Source: Opitutaceae bacterium EW11
GTDB taxonomy: Bacteria > Verrucomicrobiota > Verrucomicrobiia > Opitutales > Opitutaceae
Length of the DNA stretch: 64,000 nucleotides
Assembly (NCBI GenBank): GCA_003054665.1
Contig: QAYY01000009.1
Coordinates: forward strand, 1-64,000
Direction of reading: 5' to 3'
Positions 6,209 through 61,529 of this stretch are shown piece after piece (within the stretch, counting starts at the first letter, position 1; every line of letters starts with the position of its first letter). The notes below the pieces were generated by a model. It worked only from the letters and a program-made list of their open reading frames with translations. It was not told the DNA's origin and did not search any database. A program made the translations under genes and the position numbers.

Positions 6209-6248
6209 CGCACGCGACGGGAACCGGGCACCCGGCAGCCCCCGGCGA

Positions 6249-7223: not shown

Positions 7224-7317
7224 GCGGCGCCCCTATTCTCCCGGCCTGCCGGACAAAGGCCGCGAAGAGTCCATTGGCGGTCGTTCGTCCCCGCAGGAAG
7301 TGCACGGGTCCGCATCG

Positions 7318-8250: not shown

Positions 8251-8332
8251 GCAGTACCGATCCGCCGGAGGAAAGATTTGTCAAAGGGTTTGCGTGCGGA
8301 GGCATCCCGCATTTCTTGCGCGTGCTTTTCCG

Positions 8333-9397: not shown

Positions 9398-10317
9398 GTG
9401 ACGTTGTCCGCCCCCTCAGCCCCTCTGCCGCCGCGAGCCTAGCCGTTCCGCGGGCCCGCTTCGGCGACTACCTCGAGCTGACAAAGCCAAGGCTCAGCCT
9501 GCTGTCCGTCATCACCGCGGTCGTCGGGTATTTCTCGGCGCTTCCGAAATGGGATCCGGCGAAGTTCCTTTTCATGATGGTGGGAACCTGCCTCTGCGCC
9601 GCCGGCGTGGCCGCGCTCAACCAGTGGATGGAGAGCGACACGGACGCGTTGATGAAGCGCACCGCGGATCGGCCGATCCCGTCGGGCAAAGTCCCCACCG
9701 GCTCGGCCTTTGTCCTCGGCTGGGCCTGCTGCGCCCTCGGTCTGGCTCTCCTGTTTTCCCGCGTGAACGGCTTCGCGGCGGTTTTCGCCCTGGCGACGAT
9801 CGTCAGTTACCTTGCGCTCTACACGCCGGCAAAACGCTGGTCTCGCTGGTCCACCGAGATTGGGGCCGTGGCGGGCGCCTTTCCGCCGCTGATCGGCTGG
9901 GCGGCGAGCGAACACCACAACCCGGTCCTCGGCTGGGTGCTCTTCGGCGTGCTCTTTTTCTGGCAGGTGCCGCACTTCATGGCGATCGGCTGGATGTACC
10001 GCGCCGACTACGAGGCGGTGCATTTCCCGATGCTCCCGGTGCGCGACGCCGGCGGCGGCAAGGTCGCGCGCTGGTCCTTCTTCAACGCCGTCGCAGCCGT
10101 GGTCATCTCGGCCGTCCCCGCGTGGACGGGCCTGGCGAGCGGGTATTACCTCGCGGCGACGCTGCTGTTCGGCGCGTGGTTCGTCGCCCGCGCGGCCCGG
10201 TTCCTGCGCCCGCTCGGGCGCGAGGCCGCGGCGAAAAGACTTTTCCTGGCGTCCATCGGCTGGCTCCCCCTCCAACTCGCCGCGCTGGTCCTGGATCGCT
10301 GGATACGCGGAGCATGA
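9394..10317 (+). CDS. ctaB: Protoheme IX farnesyltransferase (heme O synthase)
   Basis: 307 residues, a UbiA-superfamily membrane prenyltransferase that adds farnesyl diphosphate to heme B to give heme O. The diagnostic motifs are present: NQWMESDTDALMKRTADRP (first Asp-rich/NxxE-type loop), YTPAKRWSRWSTEIG, FFWQVPHFMAIGW and YRADYEAVHFPMLP. Its ATG overlaps the stop of ctaA and its own stop overlaps the next start, both ATGA, so the three genes are translationally coupled. The product feeds CtaA. Confidence 0.93.
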   Translation: MSDVVRPLSPSAAASLAVPRARFGDYLELTKPRLSLLSVITAVVGYFSALPKWDPAKFLFMMVGTCLCAAGVAALNQWMESDTDALMKRTADRPIPSGKVPTGSAFVLGWACCALGLALLFSRVNGFAAVFALATIVSYLALYTPAKRWSRWSTEIGAVAGAFPPLIGWAASEHHNPVLGWVLFGVLFFWQVPHFMAIGWMYRADYEAVHFPMLPVRDAGGGKVARWSFFNAVAAVVISAVPAWTGLASGYYLAATLLFGAWFVARAARFLRPLGREAAAKRLFLASIGWLPLQLAALVLDRWIRGA

Positions 10318-10751
10318 CCGTCCACGACATTCCGGCCCTCAACGCCTCGCTCAACGCGGTCTCCACCGCCTTCATGACCGCGGGCTTCGTCTTCATCTCC
10401 CGGCGCAACGTCGTCGCACACCGCGCCTGCATGCTTTCGGCGGCCGTCGTTTCCGCGGCGTTCCTGATCGGCTACGTCACCCACAAGGCCCTCATCCACG
10501 GCGTGCACACGCCCTTCGGCGGCGAGGGGCCGATCCGTACGGTATATTATGTGATGCTCGCGACGCACATCGTGCTCGCGATGGCGATCGCCTTCCTTGT
10601 GCCCAGGACGCTGCTTTTCGCGGTGCAGGGGCGCTTCGACCGGCATCGGGCGTGGGCCCGATGGACATTTCCAATCTGGTATTACGTGAGCATCACGGGG
10701 GTGCTGGTCTACCTGTTCCTCTACCGCTGGTGGCCGGCGCATCCGGCCTGA
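10314..10751 (+). CDS. DUF420 membrane protein, oxidase-assembly associated
   Basis: 145 residues with four predicted membrane helices. Scattered conserved histidines occur (HKALIHGVHTPFGGEG, ATHIVLA, HRAWARW), as in the DUF420 family. The family includes Staphylococcus CtaM, needed for maturation of heme-A oxidases. Its position directly after ctaA and ctaB, with a 4-bp ATGA overlap, supports a role in heme A handling or oxidase assembly. The biochemical function is not established in the sequence. Confidence 0.8.
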   Translation: MTVHDIPALNASLNAVSTAFMTAGFVFISRRNVVAHRACMLSAAVVSAAFLIGYVTHKALIHGVHTPFGGEGPIRTVYYVMLATHIVLAMAIAFLVPRTLLFAVQGRFDRHRAWARWTFPIWYYVSITGVLVYLFLYRWWPAHPA

Positions 10752-11026
10752 GAATCCCGCCTACCTCCCGCGCCGATCCTTCGCGGCCCGGGGAGAAAAC
10801 GGCCTGACCGCCGCGGCGCCGCCTGCGCGTTGCATAACATTTCCTGCTCGTCCGCCAAGCCCGTCCCCGAGAACTCCTAATACTCTCCTGCCCGCTGCCG
10901 CCTCGGCGCGAACCGGAGGCATTTTAGAGACCGTTTATTTCCTTGAAACGCCGCCCGCCCTTTGGACTCATCACGCCCAGTGGTGTGCATTTTTTGTCTT
11001 CCCCTGCTCGTTTTTTGTCCACCCTC

Positions 11027-12307
11027 ATGATGCCCGTTCTGCCGATTCGCCCCCTTCTCCGACGTGCTCTTCTTGGCCTCGCAGTGACCGCGATGCCCCT
11101 CGTGTTCGGCGGCTGGAGCTGGCTTGAGGGCCCTCAATCCACGCTCCAAACCGCGGGTCCCGTCGCGGCGGAGCAGGCCAAGGTCTTCTACGTCACCGTG
11201 TGGGTGACGATAAGCATCTTCGTGGTCGTCGCCGGCACGCTGGCCTACGCGACCCTCCGCTTCCGGGCGCGCAACGCCGCGGACGAACACGTTGCCCCGC
11301 CCGAGCAAAGCCATGGCAATCCGCTGATCGAGCTGAGCTTGATCGCGGCTTCCGTGCTCGCGCTGGTCATCATCGCCGTCCCGACGTTGCGCGCCATTTG
11401 GTACAGCTACGACGTGCCCGAGGAGGAGAAGGCGAACATGTACGAGGTGAACGCCACGGGGTACCAGTGGTGGTTCCGGTTTGAATACCCGAAGGAGCAG
11501 ATCGACGGCTCCGGGACGCTCGTCGCGGCCAACGAACTCGTCATCCCGGCGCACCGCCCGGTGCGGGTGAACCTCCGCACGACCGACGTCATTCACAGCT
11601 TCTGGGTCCCGAAGCTCGCGGGCAAAGTGGACATGATCCCGAATCGCGGAAACCACCTTTGGCTCAACGCGGACCAGCCCGGTTACTACTGGGGCCAGTG
11701 CGCGGAATACTGCGGCGAATCGCACGCCGTGATGCGCTTCCGGGTGATCGCCCTCGACGAAAAGGATTTCGCCGCCTGGCTCACCCATCAAAAGCAGCCG
11801 GGCCGCACGGTCGCGGCCGCGGCGATGGCGGACGAGCGCCCCAAGGCGCAGTTCGCCAGCTACAAATTCACCCCGGTGCGGCGCAACGCGCCCGGCTGGA
11901 CGGAGCAGTTCGACGCCGATCCGTTCGGCCACTGGAAACAGCAGCAGCAGCCGGATCCGGAGGAGGATCCGGTCCTGATCGCCAAGGGACGCCAGCTGTT
12001 CACCCAGAAAACCTGCGCCGGCTGCCACACGGTGCGCGGCCAGGAAGGCGCCGGGCGTATTGGCCCGGACCTTACACACGTCGGTGCGCGCACGACGATC
12101 GCAGGCGGCCTGCTGGAGAATTCCCCGCAGAATCTCCATCGCTGGATCACCGATCCGAACAACGTGAAGCCGGGAAACAAGATGTACTACGGCACCGGCG
12201 GCATGCAGGGCTACGTGAAGCGGAACGGCGAAACCTGGGAGCAGAACATCACCGTGAGCGATGAGGAAGCTCACGCCCTCGTCGCGTACCTGCGCAGCCT
12301 CAAATAA
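11027..12307 (+). CDS. ctaC: Cytochrome c oxidase subunit II with fused cytochrome c (caa3 type)
   Basis: 426 residues. A signal/anchor region is followed by two subunit-II helices (~52-78 and ~102-122). The cupredoxin domain has a complete CuA site: H190, C225, E227, C229, H233 and M236. After a linker, a C-terminal cytochrome c domain carries C330-A-G-C333-H334 with Met at 385 or 393 as likely sixth ligand. This fusion defines caa3 oxidases, which take electrons through their own heme c. I prefer the ATG at 11027, ahead of a normal signal sequence; the frame also opens at a TTG at 10943. The preceding 275 bp (10752-11026) are non-coding and probably hold the promoter for ctaC-G. Confidence 0.92.
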   Translation: MMPVLPIRPLLRRALLGLAVTAMPLVFGGWSWLEGPQSTLQTAGPVAAEQAKVFYVTVWVTISIFVVVAGTLAYATLRFRARNAADEHVAPPEQSHGNPLIELSLIAASVLALVIIAVPTLRAIWYSYDVPEEEKANMYEVNATGYQWWFRFEYPKEQIDGSGTLVAANELVIPAHRPVRVNLRTTDVIHSFWVPKLAGKVDMIPNRGNHLWLNADQPGYYWGQCAEYCGESHAVMRFRVIALDEKDFAAWLTHQKQPGRTVAAAAMADERPKAQFASYKFTPVRRNAPGWTEQFDADPFGHWKQQQQPDPEEDPVLIAKGRQLFTQKTCAGCHTVRGQEGAGRIGPDLTHVGARTTIAGGLLENSPQNLHRWITDPNNVKPGNKMYYGTGGMQGYVKRNGETWEQNITVSDEEAHALVAYLRSLK

Positions 12308-12334
12308 CCGGCCGGTTCCAAATCCCTTTCGCTC

Positions 12335-14311
12335 ATGGACGCACTCGCACGCTCAAACTTCATCGGCAAGGAGGCCCAGCCCGACGCCGCACGGCCGTGG
12401 ATTTTCACGCGCCCAACGGCCAAGACGGGAATCGTCAGCTGGCTCACGACCGTCGATCACAAGCGGATCGGGCTTCTGTACGGCATGTCGGCGCTGTTCT
12501 TCTTCCTCGTCGGCGGCGTCGAGGCGCTGATGATCCGCATCCAGCTCGCGGTCCCGAACAACACGTTCGTCAGCCACGCGGTTTACAACGAGCTGTTCAC
12601 CATGCACGCGACCACGATGATCTTCCTCGCGGTCATGCCTCTGTCGGCGGCGTTCTTCAACTACATCATGCCGCTGCAGATCGGGGCGCGCGACGTGGCT
12701 TTTCCCCGGCTCAACGGCTTCGCCTACTGGGTGTTTCTCGCCGGCGCGATCATCCTGAACGTCGGCTGGTTCATGCGCTCCGGCGCGCCCGACATCGGCT
12801 GGTTCGGCTACGCGCCGCTGACGTCGAAGGCGTTTTCCAATCAGTTCGCGTCCGACGTTTCGACCGACCTCTGGATCATGGGCCTGCAGATCCTCGGCGT
12901 CTCCTCGATCATCGGCTCGCTGAACTTCATCGTCACGATCATCAATCTGCGCGCGCCGGGCATGACGATGATGCGCATGCCGGTGTTCACCTGGATGACG
13001 CTGGTCACGGCGTTCCTCATCATCCTTTCCTTCCCGGCCATCACCATCGCGCTGGTCGAGCTGATGATGGACCGCTCGTTCGACACGAACTTCTTCGAGG
13101 TCTCGAAGGGCGGTCTCCCGATCCTCTGGCAGCACCTGTTCTGGGTCTTCGGTCATCCCGAAGTGTACATCCTGATCCTGCCGGCGATGGGCATCATCTC
13201 GGAGATTCTGCCGACCTTCTCTCGCAAGCCGCTCTTCGGTTATCCGATCGTGGTTTTCTCCGGCGCCTGCATCGGGTTCCTCGGCTTCGGCGTGTGGAGC
13301 CATCACATGTTCACCACCGGCATGGGCACGGTCGCCACCGCGGCGTTCGCCCTCATGACCATGGCGATCGCGGTGCCGACCGGTGTGAAGATCTTCAACT
13401 GGATCGGCACGCTCTGGGGCGGCCACCTGTCGATGCGCACGCCGATGATGTTCGCGCTCGGTTTCGTCTGGATGTTCATGATGGGCGGCTTCTCCGGCAT
13501 CATGCACTCGGCGGCGCCGGCCGATTCCCAGCAGCAGGACAGCTATTTCGTCGTCGCCCACTTTCACTACGTGCTGATCGGCGGTTCGGTTTTCGCCCTG
13601 CTCGCCGGCATCCACTACTGGTTCCCCCTCGTGTTCGGCCGCAAGGTCAGCGAGCTCTGGGGCAAGCTGTCCTTCTGGGTCATCTTCATCGGCTTCAACA
13701 CCACGTTCTTCCCGATGCACTTCCTCGGGCTGAACGGCATGCCCCGCCGCACCGCGGTGTACGACGGCAACATGGGCTGGAACACGCCCAACTTCATCGC
13801 GACCGTCGGCGCCTTCATCCTCGCCGTCGGCATCGGCATCTATTTCGCGGTGATGATCTACACCTACTTCAAGGGCGAGAAGGCCGGGCGCGATCCGTGG
13901 GACGGTCGCACGCTCGAGTGGTCGCTTCCGAATCCGCCGCCCGAATACAACTACGCCGTCATTCCGACGATCCACGCCCGCGACGCCTACTGGTACGAGA
14001 AACACCACCGGGATGAGATCGCCCGCGAAAACGCCGAACACGCGCAGGCCGAAGCCAGCCACGGCGGCATCCACATGCCGAGCCAGTCCTGGTTCCCGCT
14101 CGTCACCGCGCTCGGCCTGCTCGGCGGCGGACTCTGCTTCGGCTGCAAGGACGCGATCAACGCGACGATGTCGGGCTGGGGCATGACCGGCCACAACTTC
14201 GGCATCCTCTTCGCGATCGGCTTCGGCGTGATGGTCTTCCTCGGCGCCCTGCTCTGGGCGCTCGAAGCCCCCGGCGGCTATCACGTCCACGCGGAGGAGG
14301 AAAAACACTGA
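12335..14311 (+). CDS. ctaD: Cytochrome c oxidase subunit I
   Basis: 658 residues, about twelve or more membrane helices; the catalytic subunit that reduces O2 to water and pumps protons. Metal ligands are all visible: heme a at H91 (TMHATTMIF) and H411; heme a3 at H409; CuB at H274, H323 and H324. WVFGHPEVYIL supplies H274, the D-channel glutamate E276 and the cross-linked Tyr278, so this is an A1-type oxidase. A soluble C-terminal tail (~545-658) contains another helix near 635-650. It lies 27 bp after ctaC and 91 bp before ctaE. Confidence 0.95.
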   Translation: MDALARSNFIGKEAQPDAARPWIFTRPTAKTGIVSWLTTVDHKRIGLLYGMSALFFFLVGGVEALMIRIQLAVPNNTFVSHAVYNELFTMHATTMIFLAVMPLSAAFFNYIMPLQIGARDVAFPRLNGFAYWVFLAGAIILNVGWFMRSGAPDIGWFGYAPLTSKAFSNQFASDVSTDLWIMGLQILGVSSIIGSLNFIVTIINLRAPGMTMMRMPVFTWMTLVTAFLIILSFPAITIALVELMMDRSFDTNFFEVSKGGLPILWQHLFWVFGHPEVYILILPAMGIISEILPTFSRKPLFGYPIVVFSGACIGFLGFGVWSHHMFTTGMGTVATAAFALMTMAIAVPTGVKIFNWIGTLWGGHLSMRTPMMFALGFVWMFMMGGFSGIMHSAAPADSQQQDSYFVVAHFHYVLIGGSVFALLAGIHYWFPLVFGRKVSELWGKLSFWVIFIGFNTTFFPMHFLGLNGMPRRTAVYDGNMGWNTPNFIATVGAFILAVGIGIYFAVMIYTYFKGEKAGRDPWDGRTLEWSLPNPPPEYNYAVIPTIHARDAYWYEKHHRDEIARENAEHAQAEASHGGIHMPSQSWFPLVTALGLLGGGLCFGCKDAINATMSGWGMTGHNFGILFAIGFGVMVFLGALLWALEAPGGYHVHAEEEKH

Positions 14312-14402
14312 GCCGCAGGCTTTCCAGCGATGCCCCGGCCCCGCGTGTGAATCCCAATCCTCCCACCTTTCAGCCCTTCTCTCCTTCAGCCCTTTGCCAT
14401 TC

Positions 14403-15263
14403 ATGAGCAGCCAAGCGGCCACCCTCGCAATCGACCATCACCACGATGCGACCACCTCGACGGGCATTCCGAATAAGAAGCTCTTCATGTGGGCGTTTCT
14501 GGCGTCGGACTGCATGTTTTTCGGGGCGTTGATTTCGACGCACCTGATCTATCGCCTGCATCCGCCGCCGGGTTCTCCGTCGCCGCGCACCATCTTCAGC
14601 ATCGAGCTGACGTCCTTCTCGACGTTCATCCTGCTGATGTCGTCGCTCCTGATGGCTCTCGCGGTGAACGCCATCCAGCGCGGGGACGTCCGCAGCACGA
14701 GGAGAAACCTGCTCGGCACGATCTTCTTCGGTCTGATTTTCCTCGGGTGCCAGGTCTACGAGTTCAATCACTTCGTCAGCGAAAAGGGCCTGACGCTCTC
14801 GAGCAGCATCTTCGGCTCGACCTTCTACACCCTCACCGGAACGCACGGCTGCCACGTGGCGATCGGCGTGCTCTGGCTCACGTTGATGTACGTCCGCACG
14901 TTCAAGCCGGCCGAGGCCGACAGCGGGGCCCAGCCGTGGCTCACGAGCACGTTTGCCCACCTCGTCCTCTTCGCCCTGGCGATCGTCTCCTGGATGTACC
15001 TCGTTCTCGCCCTGATTCACGGCGTGCAGGAAACCGGCCTCGGGCTCGCTACGCTCGGCCACTGGGCCGGTGAACATGTCGTGGTGCTCGGAGCGGGCAT
15101 CGTGCTCGCCGTCGCGCTCAACGTCATGGGACGCGTCCGCGGCGCGGTCGATTTCGGCCAGGCCAACGCCATCGATGTCGAGGGAGCCGGACTGTATTGG
15201 CACTTCGTCGACATCGTCTGGATCGTCATCTTCACCGCCGTCTACCTGCTCGAATACCTCTGA
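14403..15263 (+). CDS. ctaE: Cytochrome c oxidase subunit III
   Basis: 286 residues, about seven membrane helices. Typical COX3 features are KLFMWAFLASDCMFFGALIS, the GCQVYEFNHF helix and GTHGCHVAIGVLWL, ending with WHFVDIVWIVIFTAVYLLEYL-type sequence. The ATG at 14403 is preferred over a TTG three codons upstream. The 91-bp gap before it carries a CTTTCAGCCCTTC-type repeat also seen elsewhere in the window. The ctaF start follows two bases after the stop. Confidence 0.93.
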   Translation: MSSQAATLAIDHHHDATTSTGIPNKKLFMWAFLASDCMFFGALISTHLIYRLHPPPGSPSPRTIFSIELTSFSTFILLMSSLLMALAVNAIQRGDVRSTRRNLLGTIFFGLIFLGCQVYEFNHFVSEKGLTLSSSIFGSTFYTLTGTHGCHVAIGVLWLTLMYVRTFKPAEADSGAQPWLTSTFAHLVLFALAIVSWMYLVLALIHGVQETGLGLATLGHWAGEHVVVLGAGIVLAVALNVMGRVRGAVDFGQANAIDVEGAGLYWHFVDIVWIVIFTAVYLLEYL

Positions 15264-50571: not shown

Positions 50572-51528
50572 TTACTGCGGGATTGCCAGGAGCCGGGAAA
50601 GATCGACCTGGTCGCGGATGAAGCCAAGGCCGCGAGCGTCGTCGACGACGCTCTGGATGGAGGGAAGCGCGATGGCGCTGTCGAAGGTGAGCCGTTTCCA
50701 GGAGGACTCGATCAGCTCGAGCTTGATCTCCCGTTTCACCTCCGCGCTCAGCCCCTTCTGCACGAGGCGGCGCGCCTCTTCCGGATTCGCGCGTATCCAT
50801 TCCGTGAGTTCACGATGGGCCTTGACGAATCTCTCCACCAATTCGCGCTGCGAGGAGAGAAAACCGACCCGCGCCACGAGGATGGTCGTCACCACGTCGT
50901 TCTGTTCCAAATACACTTTGCCGCCTGCCTCCCTCTCGATCCGGGAGACCCACGGCTCGACGGTCCACACCGCGTCGATTTTTCCCTGCTGGAACAGCCC
51001 GAGCTGGTCGGGATTCGCCGTCGGGAGCACGTGCACGTCGCCCCCGAGTTGGGTGATCTTGAAACCCTGGGCCTTCAGCCAGGCGCGCGCCGCCACGTCC
51101 TGGGTGTTGCCCAGCTGGGGGGTGGCTAGTTTTTTGCCCTTGAAATCGGCCGGCTTGTCGATGCCGGAGCCGGGACGCACCAGCAGGGCCGCGCCGCCGC
51201 GAGCGGAACCCGAGACAATCCGTATCTCCTCGCCCTTGGAGCGGATGTAGGCGTTGAGGGCGGGGTTCGGCCCGACATACGTCAGGTCGATCGAACCTGC
51301 GAAAACGGCCTCCATCGCGCTGGGCCCCGCGTTGTAGGTGAACCACTGGAGTTCCACGTCCGGCCCGAGGCGCTGTTCGTACCAACCCTTGCCCTCGGCC
51401 GCCATCGCCTTCGCGACAATGGCCTGGGCGTGGGTCACGTTCGGGAAATAGCCGATGCGAAGCGTCGTTTTGGCAGCGGCGAACGACGCCGCGAAAAGAG
51501 ACAGACCGACGAGCAGGATATGTTTCAT
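50572..51528 (-). CDS. ABC transporter substrate-binding protein, SsuA/TauA type
   Basis: 318 residues with a cleavable signal peptide (ILLVGLSLFAASFAAA). Residues TLRIGYFPNVTHAQAI and SAMEAVFAGSIDLTYVGPNP are the standard opening of aliphatic-sulfonate/taurine binding proteins, with the type II periplasmic-binding fold. Its ATG overlaps the rrf2 stop by 4 bp and the ATPase gene follows at 7 bp, so all four genes are one unit. Ligand: alkylsulfonate, taurine or sulfate ester; the sequence alone does not say which. Confidence 0.9.
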   Translation of the reverse strand: MKHILLVGLSLFAASFAAAKTTLRIGYFPNVTHAQAIVAKAMAAEGKGWYEQRLGPDVELQWFTYNAGPSAMEAVFAGSIDLTYVGPNPALNAYIRSKGEEIRIVSGSARGGAALLVRPGSGIDKPADFKGKKLATPQLGNTQDVAARAWLKAQGFKITQLGGDVHVLPTANPDQLGLFQQGKIDAVWTVEPWVSRIEREAGGKVYLEQNDVVTTILVARVGFLSSQRELVERFVKAHRELTEWIRANPEEARRLVQKGLSAEVKREIKLELIESSWKRLTFDSAIALPSIQSVVDDARGLGFIRDQVDLSRLLAIPQ

Positions 51529-52094
51529 ATGCCTTCGCGATAGAGGAACTCGCCCAGCCCCGTTTCGGAGACCGCGGCGCGTTTTGTTGCCGACTCGGTT
51601 TTGCCCTGACTCCCACGGGCACGCGGATTCACCGCGAACGGCAGGAGAATATTGTCCCGCCGCATTTTTCGGAGCGTGACTTCGACCACGTCCGCCAAGG
51701 TGTAGCGGTCCAGGATCGCCGCGATGGCGTTGCGCACGTCGAGCATCAGCATGCGAAGCCCGCAGTGAGCCTCGTCGGGACACGAACAACGCTCGTAGGC
51801 CGTCTGGCTGACGCAGCCGATCGGTGCCAGCGGACCGTCGAGAAACCTCACGACCTGCCCGATGATGATCTCTTTCGCAGGCCGCGAGAGGCGATAGCCG
51901 CCGTACTTGCCTCGCACGCTCTCCAGAAAGCCGCCTTGCTTCAGATCGATCAGGATCTGCTCCAGGAACTTGACCGGGATCTTTTCATTGCTGGCCAACT
52001 CATTGAGCTGCAGCAAGTCGCGACCAAGCTCTCGCGCGAGCCCGATATCGATCAGAGCTCTGAGACCGTATTCGCCACGTTTGGACAGCTTCAT
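51525..52094 (-). CDS. Rrf2-family transcriptional regulator, probable sulfur/cysteine regulator
   Basis: 189 residues. The N-terminal winged helix is typical (MKLSKRGEYGLRALIDIGLA, IPVKFLEQILIDLKQGGFLESVRGKYGGY). The effector region has four cysteines, C94, C103, C105 and C111 (IGCVSQTAYERCSCPDEAHC), a layout that could hold an Fe-S cluster as in IscR/NsrR relatives; CymR-type cysteine regulators lack them. A ~40-residue basic tail is unusual. Leading the sulfonate transporter operon, next to cysK and the sulfate genes, it is the obvious candidate regulator of the whole block. A palindrome directly before its start codon suggests autoregulation. Confidence 0.88.
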   Translation of the reverse strand: MKLSKRGEYGLRALIDIGLARELGRDLLQLNELASNEKIPVKFLEQILIDLKQGGFLESVRGKYGGYRLSRPAKEIIIGQVVRFLDGPLAPIGCVSQTAYERCSCPDEAHCGLRMLMLDVRNAIAAILDRYTLADVVEVTLRKMRRDNILLPFAVNPRARGSQGKTESATKRAAVSETGLGEFLYREGI

Positions 52095-52282: not shown

Positions 52283-53275
52283 TCAGGAAGCCGCTCCGGC
52301 AGGTGCGCCGAGCAGATCGTCGATCGAGTCGCTCTCCGCGCTGATGTCGGAGAAAAGCCAGGTTGAGAGGTACCGCTCGCTGGAGGAAGGAATGACTGCG
52401 ACGATCAGCTTGCCCTTGTTCTCCGGACGTTTCGCGAGTTGCAGGGCAGCCCAGACCGCCGCGCCCGAGGAAATGCCGATCGGGATGCCGTCGAGCTGGT
52501 TCACCTGTTTCGAAATCGGAGCGGAGTCCGCTTCCTTCACGCGGATCACCTCGTCGTAGATCTTCGTGTTCAGAACCGGAGGGATGAAGCCCGCGCCAAG
52601 ACCCTGAAGCTTGTGCGGACCTGGCTGGCCGCCGGACAGCACGGGAGAGGCGTCGGGCTCGACCGCCACGATTTTCACCGCGGGCTTGCGGGCCTTCAGC
52701 ACTTCGCCGACGCCGGTGATCGTTCCGCCCGTGCCGATGCCGGACACGACGATATCCACCTTGCCGTCGGTATCGCGCCAGATCTCCTCCGCGGTGGTCT
52801 TGCGGTGGATCTCCGGGTTGGCCGGATTCGAAAACTGCTGGAGGATGACGCTGTTCGGGATCTTCGACTGGAGTTCCTCGGCCTTCGCGATCGCACCCTT
52901 CATGCCCTTCGGCCCTTCGGTCAACACCAAGCGGGCGCCGAGAACCTTCAGAAGCTTGCGGCGCTCGAGCGACATCGTCTCGGGCATCGTGAGGATGAGT
53001 TTCAACCCTTTCGCCGCGGCGACGAACGCCAGCGCAATGCCGGTGTTGCCGGAGGTCGGTTCGATCAGAACTGTATCCTTGTTGATCTTACCGGTCTTCA
53101 GGGCGTCCTCGATCATCGAGAAGCCGATGCGGTCTTTGACGCTCGAGAGCGGGTTGAAAAACTCGAGCTTCAGCACGACGTCCGCCTGCGCGCCATGCGC
53201 GGCAGCGGTGCGGTTGAGGCGCACGAGGGGGGTGTTGCCGATCGTCTCGGTGATGTCGTTCAGGATCTTTGCCAT
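52283..53275 (-). CDS. cysK: Cysteine synthase (O-acetylserine sulfhydrylase)
   Basis: 330 residues. It is a PLP enzyme joining sulfide and O-acetylserine to give cysteine. The PLP lysine is K47 (NPLSSVKDR), the substrate loop TSGNTG is at 74-79, and the phosphate-binding GIGTGGT segment is present. The start ([19 protein letters not shown]) and the length are typical CysK. A short non-family tail ends the protein. It is the last step of the sulfate pathway whose uptake genes lie immediately upstream. An AT-rich 153-bp gap before it suggests its own promoter, and a strong terminator follows. Confidence 0.95.
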
Positions 53276-53335
53276 GGCGATATGAGTTCGAAGGTTTTCG
53301 GGTCGATCGAGCGAGCGGCTCAACCGTTTATCATT

Positions 53336-53428: not shown

Positions 53429-54484
53429 CTAGATCGCATAGTCTTGCTCGAGGGCATGGGTCGGGCGCAGGCGGAGGAGGACGGGATCGTTGCCGCGAAC
53501 AGAAAGCGCCAGGAACTCCGCCCGCGAGAGTTCCACCTCCACCGGTTCCCGAGTCGAAAGGAGCTCAAGGCTGAGCTGCACTTGGGAGCCGGCGCCGTGC
53601 ACGTGCTTCAACACGGCCGGGACGCCAGCGGTGCCTGGCTGGTGAAGGTGAACCTCAATTTCGTGGGGCCGCACGTAGAGAAGCCCATCCCCCGCCAGCC
53701 GCCCGTTGTCGAGCACCGGGCCGGTCTCGGACCACGCCGTCACGTCTCGCAGGACGTTCACGTTTCCAAGAAACTGATACACGAACGGATTCGCCGGGCG
53801 GTCGTAAACTTCCTGGGGCGTGCCCACCTGCTCCACCCTCGCCTGGTTCATGATCACCACCTCGTCGGCGATCTCGAGCGCCTCTTCCTGATCGTGGGTG
53901 ACGAACAGCGTCGTCAGCTGCACTTCGTCATGGAATCGCCGCAACCAGCGGCGAAGATCCTTCCGCACCTTCGCGTCGAGAGCGCCGAAAGGTTCGTCGA
54001 GAAGCAATACCTTCGGTTCGACCGCGAGTGCGCGCGCCAAGGCCACACGCTGGCGCTGGCCTCCGGAGAGCTGGCTCGGAAATCGGCGGCCGAGGCCGTC
54101 CAGCTGCACGAGGCCCAGCAGGGATTCGACGCGCTCCGCGATCTCCCGGGAGCTGGGTCGCTGGTGCCGGCTTCGAACGCGCAAACCGAAGGCCACGTTT
54201 TCGAAAACGGTCATGTGCCGGAAAAGCGCGTAGTGCTGGAAAACAAACCCCACCCCGCGCTCTCCCGCCGGCTGCGTGGTCACGTCCTGCCCGTGAAACC
54301 GGATGGCCCCGCTCCCGGCGTCCGCATGCTCCAGTCCTGCGATGATCCGCAAGAGCGTCGTTTTGCCCGAACCCGATGGACCGAGCAGCGCGACGAGTTT
54401 GCCCTTGCCGACGTCGAGTGAAACGTCGTCCAGCGCGGTGTACCGGCCAAAGGATTTGGTGATGGAAGTGGCGGTGACGCTCAT
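53429..54484 (-). CDS. cysA: Sulfate/thiosulfate ABC transporter ATPase
   Basis: 351 residues. Walker [11 protein letters not shown]-loop [16 protein letters not shown], signature [15 protein letters not shown], Walker [13 protein letters not shown] and H-loop VTHDQEEA are all present. [14 protein letters not shown] with an N-terminal [21 protein letters not shown] is diagnostic for CysA, and a C-terminal TOBE-like regulatory domain follows residue ~240. It energises sulfate uptake with CysT, CysW and the binding proteins encoded upstream. Confidence 0.95.
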
Positions 54485-54545: not shown

Positions 54546-55424
54546 TCATTCTGCATTGGTCTGGTGGTGCTTCCACTCGACCAGGCTTTTCAGGACGAGT
54601 GTGACGAGCGCGAGCACCGCGAGCAGCGATGCCACCGCAAACGCCGCGACGAAGTTGTACTCGTTGTAGAGGATTTCGATGTGCAGGGGCATCGTGTTGG
54701 TCTCCCCGCGGATGTGTCCGCTCACCACGGATACAGCGCCGAATTCGCCCATCGCCCGGGCATTGCAGAGGATCACGCCGTAAAACAGCCCCCATTTCGC
54801 GTTCGGCAGCGTCACCCGCCAGAAAGTCTGCCACCCGCTCGCCCCGAGGCTGATGGCCGCGTACTCCTCGTCGGTTCCCTGCGCCTGCATCAGCGGGATC
54901 AACTCCCGCGCGACGAAGGGAAACGTCACGAAGATCGTCGCCAGCACGATGCCGGGCACGGCGAAGATGATCTTGATGTCGTGATCCGACAGCCACGGCC
55001 CGAACCAGCCCTGCGCCCCAAAGACGAGGACGTAGATCAGACCGGAAATCACCGGCGATACGGCGAACGGCAGGTCGATCAACGTGATCAGGAGGCTCTT
55101 TCCCCGGAAGCTGAACTTCGCGATCGCCCACGAGGCGGCCACGCCGAAAACGAGATTCGCGGGCACCGAGATCGCCGCCGCCGTCAGGGTGAGTTTGATC
55201 GCGGAAAACGCATCCGGGTCGTTGAACGAGGCGAAATACGCCCCTAGCCCTTTCCGTAGGGCTTCGGCAAATACCGCGGCGAGCGGCAGCAGCAGGAAAA
55301 GCCCGAGGAAAGCCAGCGCGACGCCAGTCAGAAGCCAGCGAACCCAGACGGGGTCCTGCGTGGCGCGCGGCGCGGCGTACGCGGTTTCTCGGCGGCTATG
55401 GAGGGATGTGGCGACGGAGGCCAT
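54546..55424 (-). CDS. cysW: Sulfate ABC transporter permease CysW
   Basis: 292 residues with six membrane helices. The family pattern is clear: [43 protein letters not shown], then the EAA loop [48 protein letters not shown] is the CysW-specific ending motif. It pairs with CysT to form the membrane channel. It lies 61 bp before cysA. Confidence 0.93.
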
Positions 55425-55540: not shown

Positions 55541-56371
55541 TCACACCCGGTGATACCGCCGGCTCCATTTCTGCAGCAGGTTGATGAGCAGCAGGAGGAC
55601 AAACGACGCGACGAGCATCACCACGGCGATCGCCGTCGCCCCGCGGTAGTCGTACTGCTCCAGCTTCGTGATGATGAGCAGCGGCGCGATTTCCGTCCGC
55701 ATGGGCATGTTGCCGGAGATAAAAACGACAGAGCCGTACTCGCCGAGAGCCCGGGCAAATGCCAGCGCGAAACCGGTGAGGAGCGCCGGGAAAAGCTGCG
55801 GCACGATCACGCGGCTGATCGTCTGCCAGCGGCCTGCGCCGAGCGTTGCCGCCGCCTCCTCGAGTTCGGGCTCCAATTCTTCCAGGACGGGCTGAAGTGT
55901 CCGGACCACAAACGGGAGTCCAATGAACGTCAGCGCGACAAAAACGCCGATCTCTGAGAACGCCACCTTGATGCCATGCGGCTCGAGGTACTGCCCCACC
56001 CAGCCGTTCTTCGCGTACACGGCCGTCAGCGCGATGCCCGCCACGGCTGTCGGCAGCGCGAACGGCAAATCGACCAAGGCATCGACGATCCGCTTTCCGG
56101 GGAACGGATATCGCACCAGCACCCAGGCGACGAGAAAGCCGAATCCCATGTTCACAGACGCGGCGGCAAACGAGGCGCCGAAGCTGACGCGATACGACGC
56201 AAGCACGCGCGGCGACGCCACCGCGGCGACAAACTCGCTCCACGTCATGCCGAACGTGCGGAGAAAGGCGGCTGAGAGCGGGACGAGCACGATCAGCCCG
56301 AGGTAGAAGATCGTGAACCCGAGCGTGAGCCCGAAGCCGGGGAGGACGGAACGTTGCGACCGAGAGGACAT
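55541..56371 (-). CDS. cysT: Sulfate ABC transporter permease CysT (CysU)
   Basis: 276 residues, six membrane helices. Signature stretches are [42 protein letters not shown], the EAA loop [22 protein letters not shown] and [19 protein letters not shown]. Order cysT-cysW-cysA is the standard one. It starts 28 bp after the M14-like gene. Confidence 0.93.
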
Positions 56372-56399: not shown

Positions 56400-57200
56400 T
56401 CAGAGGCCCGCTCCGTAGGCGATGAAACGCCTGTAGCCGCCGAGCACCGACTCCAGCGCGAGCACGGTCGCCTCGACCTGAGCCCGATGGGGCGCCAGCG
56501 CCGGCGTTTCGAAAATCAGATCGAAGGGCTTCGGTTCCTGCTCGCGCGGCGCGCTCAGCACTCCGGGATAGCAGTCGCAGAGGATGCTCTGCGTCGCGGC
56601 AAAGCCGTCGATGTTCGCCCGCGGATCGCGCGATAACACCCGCTCACACGCGGTCAGCGCCGGACGAAGCAACTCTTCGTTCAGGAGCCGACCGTGAGCG
56701 AAGCCATAGATGCCTTCCGCCGTGTCGTCGGAGTGCAGCGTGATCAGCCCGTCGAAACGGTGCGCGCGCAACTCCGCCTCGAGGATGCGCACCTCGGGCT
56801 GCAGGGAGCTGCGCCAGAACTCCCGGTTGAGATCCAGTCCGACGCCGTTTTCGCGTGTGCCCACTTCCCAGCCTGTGGGATTGCACACGGGATAGACCAC
56901 CAGGTCGTAACCCTTCGCGAGCGCCGGCTGCTCCGTCAGCTTCATCAGGAGTTCAACAAGCGCCTCCGATCCCGCCGGCTCGTCGCCGTGAATCCCGGCA
57001 AAGAGCCCCACTCGGATCGGCTCATGCTCAGCCGGCGGGCCGGCGAAGATAAAGCGAGCCACGCCATACCGGCGACCTCCGTGCTGAAAAGATCCCGCCA
57101 TGCTGCCGATCAGCTCCGGGCAATGCTCCGCCAGCTCGAACAGCGGGCCGAGCAAAGCGCGCAGGTCGCGCGTATCCGCGGGAGAGATCCGTTGCACCAT
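56400..57200 (-). CDS. M14/AstE-family zinc carboxypeptidase-like protein with intact active site
   Basis: 266 residues, cytoplasmic (no signal peptide). The zinc site of succinylglutamate desuccinylase/aspartoacylase and M14 peptidases is complete: H71 and E74 (FAGIHGDEPAG), H156 (ITLHSDDT), with R126 (LDLNREFW) and the general base E231 (LIFETPAL). Known relatives cut amide bonds of N-acylated amino acids or peptides. Its place between cysT (28 bp) and a sulfate-binding protein gene (11 bp) implies a sulfur-related substrate, such as an N-acylated or gamma-linked cysteine or another organosulfur amide; this is inference. A frame-open upstream extension is antisense noise. Confidence 0.82.
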   Translation of the reverse strand: MVQRISPADTRDLRALLGPLFELAEHCPELIGSMAGSFQHGGRRYGVARFIFAGPPAEHEPIRVGLFAGIHGDEPAGSEALVELLMKLTEQPALAKGYDLVVYPVCNPTGWEVGTRENGVGLDLNREFWRSSLQPEVRILEAELRAHRFDGLITLHSDDTAEGIYGFAHGRLLNEELLRPALTACERVLSRDPRANIDGFAATQSILCDCYPGVLSAPREQEPKPFDLIFETPALAPHRAQVEATVLALESVLGGYRRFIAYGAGL

Positions 57201-57211
57201 GGCGGGTGAAG

Positions 57212-58231
57212 TTATTTGCGCTCGTAGATCTGGTCGAAGAGGCCGCCATCGCTGAAGTGCACCTTCTGCGCCTCGGACCAGCTGCCGGCGATCTCCTCGA
57301 TCGTGAACATCGGGATCGGTTTGAACTCGTCGGAATGCTTGGCCAGCAGCGCCGGATCGCGGGGGCGCAAGTGGTGTTTCACCGCGATCTCCTGCACCGC
57401 CGGGGTGTAGAGAAACTCCAGATACGCCTTGGCGAGCTTTTCGGTGCCCTTCCGTTTCACGACCTTGTCCACCCAGACGACTGGATTCTCCGCCAGGATG
57501 CTGACCGAGGGGACGACGACCTCCAGATTGTCCGAACCGAACTCCCTCAGCATCAGCGTGACTTCGCTCTCGAAGGTCAGGAGCACGTCGCCGATCGCGC
57601 GTTGCGCAAAGGTCGTCGTGGCACCGCGTCCTCCGGTGTCGAGCACGGGCACGTTGGCAAAGAGCTTCTGCACGAACTCGCGCGCCTTGCCCTGGTCGCC
57701 GCCGTTTTTCTTCAAGGCGTAACCCCACGCCGCAAGGTAGCTGTATCGTCCGTTGCCCGCGGTCTTCGGGTTCGGAATCACCACCGAGACGCCTGACCGC
57801 ACGAGATCGTCCCAATCCTTGATGCCCTTGGGATTCCCTTTCCGGACGATGAACAAAATCGTGGAGGTCGTCGGCGCGCTGTGTTCGGGAAGGCGCGACG
57901 ACCAGTCGGCCGGGATCAGCCCTGCGTTCGCCAGCGCATCGATGTCGAGGGCCTGGTTCATCGTCACGACATCCGCGGCCAGTCCGTCGATCACGCTCCG
58001 CACCTGCTTGCTCGAGCCGCCGTGCGATTGCTGGATGGTGACGGTTTCGCCCGTTCTGGTTTTCCAGTCCTGAGCGAATGCGGGGTTCACGTCCTTGTAG
58101 AACTCACGCGCAACATCGTACGAAACGTTGAGCAACGAAGCCGCCTGCGAGACTGCAGGAGCCAGCCACGTGGCGGAGAGGGAAACGAGAAGCGCGAGGG
58201 AGGAGGATTTGAGCAGTTTCACGGAATTCAA
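57212..58231 (-). CDS. sbp: Sulfate-binding protein (second copy)
   Basis: 339 residues with a signal peptide (LALLVSLSATWLAPAVSQA). The sulfate-binding family signature is clear: [74 protein letters not shown] and GRGATTTFAQRAIGDVLLTFE. It binds sulfate or thiosulfate in the periplasm. It is clearly a paralogue of the protein encoded at 59092. Its start overlaps the stop of the degenerate M14-like gene by 4 bp. Confidence 0.95.
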   Translation of the reverse strand: MNSVKLLKSSSLALLVSLSATWLAPAVSQAASLLNVSYDVAREFYKDVNPAFAQDWKTRTGETVTIQQSHGGSSKQVRSVIDGLAADVVTMNQALDIDALANAGLIPADWSSRLPEHSAPTTSTILFIVRKGNPKGIKDWDDLVRSGVSVVIPNPKTAGNGRYSYLAAWGYALKKNGGDQGKAREFVQKLFANVPVLDTGGRGATTTFAQRAIGDVLLTFESEVTLMLREFGSDNLEVVVPSVSILAENPVVWVDKVVKRKGTEKLAKAYLEFLYTPAVQEIAVKHHLRPRDPALLAKHSDEFKPIPMFTIEEIAGSWSEAQKVHFSDGGLFDQIYERK

Positions 58232-59043
58232 AGGTTCTGGCGGTACGCCTGGAGCGATCCTTGTCGCAGGATGAATTGCCGGAGCAGTTGCGGCACGGCC
58301 GCGTCAATTATCTCGGCCGACCACGCGTGCGGCAGACGCAGTGTGATTTCGTAGGGCCGGATCGGGAGGTCGTCGGCGATGCTGAGCGGTCCGTCTTCAA
58401 CTCGAGATTGCGGACGGCGATCAAGCTCCCATCTGACCGGCCACGCATCGAAATGAGCGGGATCGACTAGTTCCACCCGCCGGTCTGAAGCGTCGGGAGC
58501 CGGCAGGGTTCGCAGCCGAAGGGAAATGACGGATTCGGCGGAGTCCGATTCGATCCGCACGAAACCGTGATAGCCCCGCGACCTCGCATCTTTCGCGAGG
58601 AGCACCACCTCAGGATTGGCGTGGTCTCCCCAATGCGAGGTCGCCAAGTGCCGGCCGACCGCTTCGCCCTCGCTGCCGAGAGCATCGACGAGAGGGAAAA
58701 AGGACAGGTTCAGTCCCTGCGCGAGTTCGGGCTGCCCCGCCAGTCTCTCGACAAACACGAGCACCGCCGCCGCCGCTCGCAGATCGCGCACGTCGAAACC
58801 GCTCAACACGGCAAGCCGGAGCGATTCGTCATGGGTGTGCGGACCGAAGTAGACAAAGCGCGGCAAATGCCGCGCCCGGCCGCCGTGATGGAACGGACCG
58901 AGCGGCGAGGCGAAGACGTAGTTGGACTTCTGAGACCGCTCGTAGACGGCGGTCAAGCGGGCAGCCAGCTCGCCCACGCCCGCGGCCGCGGCGTTTGGGA
59001 CGACCCGCGCCACGGTGGAAAATCGCGTTGAAACCTCGTTCAT
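58228..59043 (-). CDS. Degenerate paralogue of the M14/AstE-like protein, zinc ligands lost
   Basis: 271 residues, no signal peptide. It aligns end to end with the neighbouring active-type protein: FHHGGRARHLPRFVYFGPHT against FQHGGRRYGVARFIFAGPPA, and AVLSGFDVRDLRA against GLFAGIHGDEPAG. The three zinc-ligand positions H71, E74 and H156 of the partner are D84, D87 and E165 here, so it should not bind zinc in the same way. It is translationally coupled (ATGA) to the sulfate-binding protein gene. It may be a pseudo-enzyme that regulates or chaperones its partner; that is inference. It is not a frameshifted pseudogene, as the frame is intact. Confidence 0.75.
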   Translation of the reverse strand: MNEVSTRFSTVARVVPNAAAAGVGELAARLTAVYERSQKSNYVFASPLGPFHHGGRARHLPRFVYFGPHTHDESLRLAVLSGFDVRDLRAAAAVLVFVERLAGQPELAQGLNLSFFPLVDALGSEGEAVGRHLATSHWGDHANPEVVLLAKDARSRGYHGFVRIESDSAESVISLRLRTLPAPDASDRRVELVDPAHFDAWPVRWELDRRPQSRVEDGPLSIADDLPIRPYEITLRLPHAWSAEIIDAAVPQLLRQFILRQGSLQAYRQNL

Positions 59044-59091: not shown

Positions 59092-60096
59092 TCAGGGCGC
59101 CACGCCCTGGCCCGAATAGATCTGGTCGAACACTCCGCCGTCGGAGAAGTGGGTCTTTTGCGCCTTCGGCCAGCCGCCGAAGACCTCGTCGATGGTGAAA
59201 AGCTCGAGCTTCGGAAAGACGCTCGCGTATTTCGTCGCGGCAGCGGCGGACCTTGGACGGTAGAAATTCCGGCCGGCGATATCCTGTCCTTCGTCGGAAT
59301 AGAGGTACTCGAGGTAGGCGCGCGCCACGGCCTCGGATCCCTTCTTTTTCACGACCTTGTCGACCACGGCCACGGTCGGTTCGGCGAGAATGCTGATTGA
59401 GGGCACGACGATCTCGAACTTGTCGGCGCCGAACTCATTCACCGCCAGAAACGCCTCGTTTTCCCAGGAGATGGCGACGTCTCCGATGCCGCGCTGGACA
59501 AACGTGGTCGTGGCTCCCCGTGCCCCCGAATCGAGGACGGGAACGTTCTTGAACAGCTTCGCGACAAAGTCCTTCGCCTTCGGCTCGCCTCCGTATTTGC
59601 GAAGCGCATACCCCCACGCCGCCAGATAATTCCATCGAGCTCCACCCGAGGTCTTGGGGTTCGGCGTGATGACCGACACGCCCGGCCGGACGAGATCGTC
59701 CCAGTTGTGAACGCCCTTCGGATTCCCCTTCCGGACGAGAAACACGATCGTGGAGGTGTAGGGCGCGCTGTTGTCGGGCAGGCGCTTCTGCCAGTCGGCG
59801 GGAATCAGCTTTCCAAACGTGCTCAAGGCATCCACGTCGGCCGCGAGGGCCAACGTGACCACATCGGCCGGCAGACCGTCGATGACGGCGCGCGCCTGCT
59901 TGCCCGAGCCGCCATGCGACTGTTTCACCGTGACAGCGTCGCCCGTCTTGGCCTGCCAGTATTTGGCGAAGGCGGCATTGAAGTCGACGTACAGCTCGCG
60001 CGTCGGATCATACGACACGTTGAGAAGCTGGACCTCCTTGGCCGAAGCGAGCCCGGCGAACGCCAGAATCGTGAGAAGAAGCGTAAGTATTTTCAT
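59092..60096 (-). CDS. sbp: Sulfate-binding protein (first copy)
   Basis: 334 residues with a signal peptide ([16 protein letters not shown]). [66 protein letters not shown] and [21 protein letters not shown] are the Sbp signature. Two sulfate-binding proteins in one operon suggest different affinities or ligands (sulfate versus thiosulfate). It follows the porin gene by 20 bp. Confidence 0.95.
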
Positions 60097-60116: not shown

Positions 60117-61529
60117 TCAGAAGAGGAGCTGCAGGCGGGTGACGAGCGCGTTCTCGTCATCGGCGATGACAGACGTGCGGACGGGAGCGGCTCCCGCGGC
60201 ATAGTCGAAGTCCGCGTGGAAAACGTCCGCGGAGGCCCGGACGGCTCTGCTCAGATACCAATTCAATCCCACGCCGTACGTGCTGACTTTCTTCGCCGCG
60301 GCATTTGGATTGGCGAGCGAGAGGCTGCCGCCCGCGAACGCGTCGTCGCCGATTTTCCCCTGCCCGATCCTGCCGACGATTTCGAAAGCGCCCCAGGTGC
60401 CGCTTTCCAGCGAGAAGTTCGACTTCGGTGTGACGCCCTTGTAGCCGGAATCCTCGCCGGTGAGAACGTATCCAGCCGACAACTGCCACGCCTTGTTGCG
60501 CACGGTTCGGCGGTTCGTGCCGTTGGCCGCCTCAACCGAGGAGATCACGTACTCGCCCATCACTCCCAGCGGTCCGTAATAGTAGTAGGCTTGTGGAGAC
60601 AGGCGCCAGGTGCCGCCCGCCGCCACGGTGGTGGAGCGGTAGCTGAACCAGGTCTGCTGCGCGTCGGTGCGGTAGCCGCTGGTCAGTGCCGGAGTCGCGC
60701 CGGCGCCGGAACCCTGATGGCCGACGCTGCCCGCGATGCCGATCCCCAGTCCGGACAGGGCTCCCTCGGTGTTCTTGAACGGATGGGAGAAGAGCCGGGC
60801 AGCGACGTCCTTGTCGTCGTTGGTGTCGCTGTTGTTCGCGTTATTCGCTCCGTCGGCGACGCCATTGAACACGCCCACCGCATAGCTGAGCGTGCCGTTC
60901 AGGACATTCCCCGCCACCTGCACGCCGACATCGCGATTCGGCACGAACTGCGAGACGATGGATCGTTCGGCGAAAAACGCGACGGAGTCGGACTGTAACT
61001 GTTCCAGCCCTACAGGTTCACGGAAACGCCCGAAACGAATCTGGAGCCCGGGCTTTAGCGCGACATTGATGTTCGCGTCGAGGAGCGTGAGCGTGCCGTT
61101 TCCGCTCGTGCCGCCGAACTCGGGAACCAGCTGGTATTCGTAGATCTTGTTGAAACCGCCCTCGAAGATCAGGCGGGCTCGCCGAAGGAGAAAGGCGTCG
61201 TTGTTGCTGACGTGGTCGCCGAAGAACCAGCGTGAATCCGCCTGGAGCAGTGCCCGGAGACGGAGCGAATTGGCTGCGTCACCCGAGGCCAGGGTGAAGC
61301 CCTTGTCGCTCGCGCTCACCTTGACCGCGGCGTTCGCCTTGGAGGCAGCCTCTTCGTCGCGAATCTCCTGTTTGCGCTCCAGGACGCGGAGCTTCTGATC
61401 GAGCTGCTGAATCTGATCACGCAGCTGGCGAATCTCGTCGTCGCGGGAGTCCGCCCAGGCGGCCGGTGTTCCGGAAAGGAAGGTGCCGGCCAGGAGGATG
61501 GCGCCGATTGAAGAAGACACGGTTTTCAT
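60117..61529 (-). CDS. OprP/OprO-family outer-membrane porin
   Basis: 470 residues. After a signal peptide ([19 protein letters not shown]) comes a periplasmic coiled coil (~30-60, [20 protein letters not shown]) and then a beta-barrel ending in phenylalanine (LQLLF). [38 protein letters not shown] and [11 protein letters not shown] are hallmarks of the phosphate-selective porin family, whose members form trimeric anion channels. As the first gene of the sulfate operon it is most likely a sulfate or organosulfonate channel. The upstream region has a TATAAC word at 61537-61542. Confidence 0.9.

Follow-up and report, generated by a model that had tools for sequence, protein, structure and literature searches.

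The window analyzed here, a 64,000-nucleotide stretch of contig QAYY01000009.1 of Opitutaceae bacterium EW11, carries a sulfate-uptake operon that holds two related genes on the minus strand. One encodes P0001 (56400..57200, 266 amino acids), a zinc hydrolase of active M14/AstE type, and the other P0002 (58228..59043, 271 amino acids), a zinc-less M14-fold paralogue; the relatives of the two are called M14 and psM14 below. Our reading, which we hold tentatively, is that P0001 may be an N-acyl-amino-acid deacylase of the cysteine regulon and P0002 a non-catalytic regulator derived from it. P0001 would be a cytosolic zinc deacylase with the AstE/M14 fold, from a clade carried in sulfate-uptake/cysteine-synthesis operons of several verrucomicrobial families, and would most likely deacylate a small N-acyl amino acid that belongs to cysteine metabolism, preferably N-acetylserine (the rearrangement product of O-acetylserine, the substrate of CysK) or N-acetylcysteine. 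P0002 would have arisen by duplication from P0001 and lost zinc and catalysis while its fold was kept under selection, and would now act in the pathway of P0001 by binding or regulation, with no need of the enzyme as a partner.

An earlier note on the window had singled out this pair. What it described does exist and is conserved to an extent that the sequence alone could not reveal; the proposed pairing has to be read more loosely, as the dead copy occurs by itself in several lineages. Several families of Verrucomicrobiota carry a deacylase-type gene beside Sbp, CysT and CysK genes, and in several lineages the dead paralogue has persisted longer than the enzyme. The literature searches made found no described role for either protein, and among the matches listed we recognized no sulfate operon with a protein of the M14 or AspA/AstE type. 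If P0001 does clear N-acetylserine or free cysteine from N-acyl forms, this would be an unrecognized step of cysteine metabolism.

P0001 and its zinc-less twin

P0001 has the full zinc site read by the earlier note (H71, E74 and H156, with R126 and E231), and R116 and N125 complete the catalytic set. It belongs to PF24827, the AstE/AspA catalytic domain (38.1 bits, cut-off 25), which every one of the 69 aligned M14 proteins matches at an E value of 0.01 or better, and it also matches PF00246 (30.0 bits, cut-off 21.6). Unlike AstE and AspA themselves, it stays under both of their equivalog cut-offs, the former being TIGR03242, succinylglutamate desuccinylase (12.1 bits, cut-off 305.65). It likewise falls short of NF052223, N-acetylornithine deacetylase (31.6 bits, cut-off 400), and of NF007897, the murein tripeptide amidase MpaA (33.1 bits, cut-off 157). 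The AlphaFold2 model of P0001 has the M14 fold, with a mean predicted local distance difference test score (pLDDT) of 94.1 that drops at the tail. A PDB profile search with the P0001 family placed the Shewanella proteins 2qvp, 3b2y and 3ieh at the top, and the same three are among the closest structures to the model (for 2qvp, VIA Z 26.7, root mean square deviation 2.7, 240 aligned residues).

These Shewanella proteins resemble P0001 in length (about 270 amino acids) and in the M14 fold (VIA Z 25.5-26.7), at about 21% identity by structural alignment, and NF052223 matches a 103-residue fragment of 2qvp with 186 bits. SO_3749, of this group, was shown to be an N-acetylornithine deacetylase by complementation, rescuing an Escherichia coli argE mutant, as did the reverse exchange (PMC3219624; also cited in PMC5764234). 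Because this is the nearest characterized relative, an N-acyl-amino-acid deacylase is the best guess for P0001, and the N-acyl substrate suggested by the earlier note would fit by analogy. Acetylornithine itself is an unlikely substrate given the ArgJ-like gene of the window genome (263.6 bits, cut-off 298, E 4e-78), which, in contrast to the Shewanella case, leaves P0001 no obvious arginine role. N-Acetylserine appeals as a substrate since O-acetylserine converts to it spontaneously (PMC11329422), CysK is adjacent and the genome has a CysE-like gene (149 bits, cut-off 210.65). N-Acetylcysteine is the other candidate, a guess by analogy with the cysteine-related clusters of Bacillus subtilis, which hold the N-acetylcysteine deacetylases ScmP, YhaA and YtnL (PMC12757645). 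These differ from P0001 in that they belong to another family, M20, and act in the salvage of S-modified cysteine, and the accessible part of that report mentions no pseudo-enzyme. The M14 and psM14 alignments have no hydrophobic stretch near the N terminus (the mean over 15 residues peaks at 1.51, versus 2.55 in Sbp1) and no signal peptide was seen in P0001; therefore both proteins are probably cytosolic.

P0002 carries D84, D87 and E165 at the three zinc-ligand positions of the alignment, its catalytic Glu is replaced and its frame is open, all as the earlier note had described apart from the Glu. Pairwise it is 28% identical to P0001 (E 1e-15) and a profile-profile comparison with hhalign gave E 2.6e-36 over 248 columns, so that, judged from their sequences, the two are true paralogues, as had been proposed. 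P0002 has no match in Pfam or NCBIfam, PF24827 included, and neither P0002 nor any of its 26 aligned orthologues (27/27) has a Pfam match at E 0.01. Its AlphaFold2 model nonetheless has the M14 fold (pLDDT 85.7, lower at the tail) and matches 3l2n with VIA Z 21.4 and root mean square deviation 3.4 over 244 residues. Homology, modeled fold and a loss of catalytic residues that the orthologues share thus fit an M14 pseudo-enzyme. The pseudopeptidases AEBP1, CPXM1/2, CPD-III and Ecm14 likewise keep the M14 fold with zinc or catalytic residues lost (PMC11266112), but they are eukaryotic (vertebrate and fungal), whereas P0002 is bacterial, probably cytosolic and part of a sulfate operon.

Residues were tallied in an alignment of 143 proteins (96 M14 and 47 psM14), in which a few records were reached twice (e.g., L112/G148 and L096/G530, where L and G numbers denote loci and genomes). 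All three zinc ligands are kept in 95/96 M14 proteins and in 0/47 psM14 proteins, of which 39 retain none and 8 retain one; N125/R126 and E231 are each kept in 95 of the 96 M14 proteins. The former zinc positions of psM14 are mostly D, D and E but not fixed (D 33, D 41 and E 29 of the 47 copies), and a new metal site at D84/D87/E165 was therefore rejected as a general rule; an oxygen-ligand site may exist in part of the family. As for ligands elsewhere in P0002, the psM14 alignment shows no conserved His pair able to replace them, in the alignment itself and not in a dedicated search for a shifted site. One psM14 subgroup (L053, L056 and L062) retains the third His and looks intermediate.

The zinc-less copies are under purifying selection, with dN/dS (the ratio of nonsynonymous to synonymous rates) of 0.11-0.25 in 11 pairs above 66% identity; the values, from our own Nei-Gojobori script, are rough, as dS exceeds 1 in five of the pairs. 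In a quick 88-row tree, 38 of 39 psM14 rows form one clade with full support (approximate likelihood ratio test, SH-aLRT, 100), and copies from G371, G408 and G469 sit on a long branch. The remaining row is the second copy of L098 (7814-8620), in another lineage, a zinc-less gene that adjoins an active M14 and CysK and possibly lost its zinc site independently. In a careful 41-row tree, 0/200 bootstrap replicates group this copy with the other psM14; approximately unbiased (AU) tests allow a single psM14 clade that includes it on the 41-row tree (p 0.295) and on the 88-row tree (p 0.848), where the constrained tree is even more likely. Both M14-like genes of a sulfate operon at L193 (G469, 6305-8033) are degenerate, and the stretch contains no intact copy.

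Distribution and gene neighborhood

The sulfate-uptake context claimed for the pair holds up: Sbp1, Sbp2, CysT, CysW, CysA and CysK of the window each exceed their NCBIfam cut-offs. We searched 252 genomes of the window's family, Opitutaceae, counting psM14 at a profile E value below 1e-60 and M14 at 1e-30 or lower. psM14 was found in 52 genomes and M14 in 58; 40 have both, 12 have psM14 alone and 18 have M14 alone. The degenerate gene is conserved among relatives. Two of the 18 (G059, C90:24299-24985; G060, C151:41093-41785) have a weaker M14-like gene directly before M14, with E values of 9e-26 and 2e-21 for the psM14 profile; these genes were not counted and possibly are very divergent psM14. 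No psM14 match contains an internal stop in any of the 52 genomes, where the match of G256 is split over two frames and that of G173 is cut by a contig end. Nine of the 12 genomes with psM14 alone reach a completeness of 90% or more with contamination of 5% or less (G006, G009, G046, G076, G080, G193, G200, G244 and G251). The order Sbp1-psM14-CysT, with no M14 between, occurs in G076, G077, G080, G193, G200, G244 and G251, and an eighth such operon is that of G201, which has an M14 elsewhere in the genome. Since a P0002-type copy sometimes survives without the enzyme, a regulatory job is suggested.

Beyond the family, a close M14 (E < 1e-60) occurs in 25 of 387 genomes of a phylum sample; 15 of these lie outside the Opitutaceae, and 13 were fetched. 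Eight of the 13 loci have Sbp/CysTWA genes and that of G336 lies beside two Sbp genes. M14 stays beside Rrf2 alone in G433 and G594 (the latter near a contig end), and has no Sbp, CysTWA or Rrf2 neighbor in G475 and G556; the genomes G475, G433 and G594 gave no CysT match. A scan of genome contigs was evaluated for the best 80 of 180 loci, 38 of which were dropped for short flanks. Among the 42 with enough flank, Sbp was a neighbor in 38, CysT and Rrf2 in 36 each, porin in 35, CysK in 26 and psM14 in 14, and the named matches are nearly all from Opitutaceae or other Verrucomicrobiota. Where no transporter is near, CysK can remain beside M14 (L040, L103 and L104, with CysT elsewhere in those genomes), as can Rrf2 in G433 and G594. 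The link of the pair to sulfate genes that the earlier note had seen in one genome is thus borne out in the sulfate operons of relatives, and the recurrence of M14 in such operons of several verrucomicrobial families is more than chance. Viral contigs scanned with P0002 gave no relative, and a plasmid scan with P0001 gave five weak records.

Some loci depart from the common arrangement. One genome, reached twice (L047/L159), has a psM14-M14 pair outside any sulfate operon, beside an amidohydrolase gene, and at L154 (G148, 5530-15048) three zinc-less copies accompany the one M14 around a single sulfate/CysK cluster. In G006 an orphan psM14 (L031, 9641-10441) lies away from that genome's sulfate operon, which has no M14. 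In G009 (L029, 9476-13799) psM14 directly precedes CysK near a Cys/Met pyridoxal phosphate enzyme; a PstS-like binding protein is encoded upstream, and the stretch lacks CysTWA.

C-terminal tails, CysK and rival explanations

The last residue of M14 is Leu in 76, Ile in 18 and another residue in 2 of 96 proteins, and that of psM14 is Leu in 40, Ile in 4 and another in 3 of 47. Exactly 33 residues follow the P233 position in 95/96 M14 and 44/47 psM14 proteins, and the 88-row tree, where 63 rows have Leu, 18 Ile and 5 another residue, requires at least 11 changes of the terminal residue. Other operon proteins end in Ile, in tallies that include some records reached twice: Rrf2 in 69/71 (GDYTI or GGEGI types) and CysA in 60/66, with unrelated sequences before the Ile (EDYAI, PGRGI and GAGEHI). 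Leu or Ile is last in 0/49 CysK, 0/79 Sbp1 and 0/68 porins; CysT ends in Ile in 13/75, and Ile is absent from the six commonest last residues of CysW (58/75 proteins). The window genome itself has Ile at the ends of Rrf2 (REGI), CysA (DYAI) and the CysE-like protein (DWVI), the signature expected of docking; P0001 (AYGAGL) and P0002 (AYRQNL) both end in Leu and lack it.

In an even sample of the phylum, window included, Ile ends 23 of 47 readable sulfate CysA proteins above the TIGR00968 cut-off (48 fetched) and 0/20 related ATPases below it, where 20 of 26 were fetched and the rows left out include the three nearest the cut-off. Outside the phylum, none of five CysA proteins (E. coli K-12 and four plasmid-borne relatives) ends in Ile. 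Neither do the six from M14-bearing genomes outside the family in the sample (G325, G371, G376, G408, G460 and G469), and therefore M14 is not always accompanied by the CysA tail; CysA of G530 and G566 do end in Ile. The window genome encodes another Rrf2 whose last residue is likewise Ile (MYYI) and which is therefore unusable as a negative control, and the Rrf2 beside M14 in G433 ends in EIQPH.

CysE is anchored in CysK by its C-terminal Ile, an interaction that CdiA mimics (PMC5562914), and CymR, an Rrf2 protein, acts with CysK (PMC11487621), its C terminus having been modelled in CysK (PMC5562914, PMC11487621). Thus, by analogy, the Ile tails of Rrf2 and CysA look like candidate CysK-docking tails. 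The operon Rrf2 and the CysE-like protein of the genome end in Ile as CysE does, and the Rrf2 tail suggests CymR-like control through CysK; the difference from those systems is that a candidate tail is found on CysA too, which makes a direct link from CysK to the transporter testable. Leu-ended peptides bind CysK less well, and the mostly-Leu tails of M14 and psM14 would be weaker evidence of docking.

A wider scheme can be drawn from these tails, which we consider rather doubtful: the operon would be wired to CysK through the tails of CysE, Rrf2 and CysA, so that CysK reports the cysteine/O-acetylserine status to transcription and to the sulfate pump, with M14 and its twin as further clients and the tail, not the zinc site, conserved in the twin. 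The part that concerns P0001 and P0002, that their Leu/Ile tails dock in the CysK active site like CysE and that docking rather than hydrolysis is conserved, seems to us possible on a similarly low footing. It would explain why Leu or Ile is last in 94/96 M14 and 44/47 psM14 proteins at a constant distance from P233, and it agrees with the drop of model confidence at both tails, with solved homologues that appear to stop a few residues earlier, with the CysK linkage (26/42 loci) and with the finding that many of these operons encode CysA and Rrf2 proteins ending in Ile. Leu nevertheless dominates in M14 and psM14, whereas Rrf2 and CysA use Ile, a constant length right behind a helix could be structural, the tail is missing in four copies of G469, G408 and G371, one copy (G556_x) keeps it with no sulfur gene in the fetched stretch, and the outside-family CysA proteins of the phylum sample lack Ile.

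Three further readings bear on the pair. That the two proteins make up an obligate heteromer, with the dead subunit controlling the live one, we regard as unlikely. The earlier note's enzyme/pseudo-enzyme pairing survives as co-occurrence, since 40 of the 52 psM14 genomes also have M14, often as the next gene, and the pair is kept together outside a sulfate operon at L047/L159. Its regulated complex is not supported as an obligate one: the enzyme is absent in 12/52 of these genomes, eight operons have psM14 before CysT with no M14 between, M14 lacks an above-threshold psM14 in 18/58 genomes (weaker copies in G059 and G060 aside) and in most loci outside the window's order, and the covariation proposed as a check gave a mirror-tree partial correlation of 0.18 in 16 operons, a weak signal. 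A peptidase role for P0001, as an MpaA-like murein-tripeptide amidase or of the gamma-glutamyl-cysteine or CysO-cysteine type, appears improbable. MpaA is the top NCBIfam match by score, MpaA chains are among the PDB matches, carboxypeptidase structures and REP34 match well, and ThiS/JAB/cysteine-synthase operons are known (PMC1779556); but the MpaA score is far under its cut-off, the neighbors are sulfur genes, and no ThiS/CysO-like carrier gene and no peptidoglycan gene was noticed among the operon genes, which leaves the carrier processing imagined in the earlier note unsupported. Least probable by far is that P0002 is a decaying pseudogene: the loss of every zinc ligand, the missing Pfam match in 27/27 members and the split match of G256 could be so read, but no match in the 52 genomes has a stop (G173 being cut by a contig end), dN/dS is low, and length and operon slot are kept.

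Several observations weigh against a deacylase of the cysteine regulon as well. P0001 scores far under every equivalog cut-off (31.6/400 and 33.1/157 bits), and REP34 (4oko, VIA Z 27.1) ties with the Shewanella protein 2qvp (26.7), with true carboxypeptidases close behind, so that a peptidase role may still be compatible with the structure matches of the model. The M14 of G475 sits in a genome with no CysT match, and its fetched stretch has neither Rrf2 nor CysK. CysT occurs in at least 93 of the 252 family genomes (G017 and G021 were missed, though CysT was seen there), and because many family sulfate operons lack M14 (e.g., G006 and L158), M14 is an accessory of the operon. A second M14 copy of G469 keeps the HxxE ligands without H156, N125 and R126, and the catalytic Glu is Gln in the M14 of G371; catalysis is therefore dispensable even in such M14 copies.

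Operon layout in the window

The operon genes are closely spaced on the minus strand in the order porin, Sbp1, P0002, Sbp2, P0001, CysT, CysW, CysA and CysK. The OprO/OprP-type porin (60117..61529, PF07396) is followed by the sulfate binding protein Sbp1 (59092..60096, NF008022, 550 bits). Sbp2, a second sulfate/thiosulfate binding protein (57212..58231, TIGR00971, 455 bits), lies between P0002 and P0001, a gene that the earlier note did not mention, and is missing from the operons of many relatives. The ATGA coupling reported for P0002 was misread: its ATG lies 48 nucleotides past the end of Sbp1, and its stop codon (TGA, 58230-58228) shares bases, as TTGA, with a TTG that may start Sbp2, the start codon of Sbp2 being uncertain given an alternative GTG at 58222. 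P0001 begins 11 nucleotides after the end of Sbp2.

After P0001 come the permeases CysT (55541..56371, TIGR02139, 421 bits) and CysW (54546..55424, TIGR02140, 423 bits), the ATPase CysA (53429..54484, ending in LEQDYAI; TIGR00968, 385 bits, cut-off 342.75) and the O-acetylserine sulfhydrylase CysK (52283..53323, TIGR01139, 455 bits). On the 3' side of CysK, in the same strand order, are the Rrf2-family regulator (51525..52094, PF02082, ending in LYREGI) and then an SsuA/SsuB-like ATP-binding cassette (ABC) set, whose SsuA-like sulfonate/NMT1-type binding protein, 3' of Rrf2, spans 50572..51789 (minus strand, PF13379) with the open reading frame taken from the first TTG.

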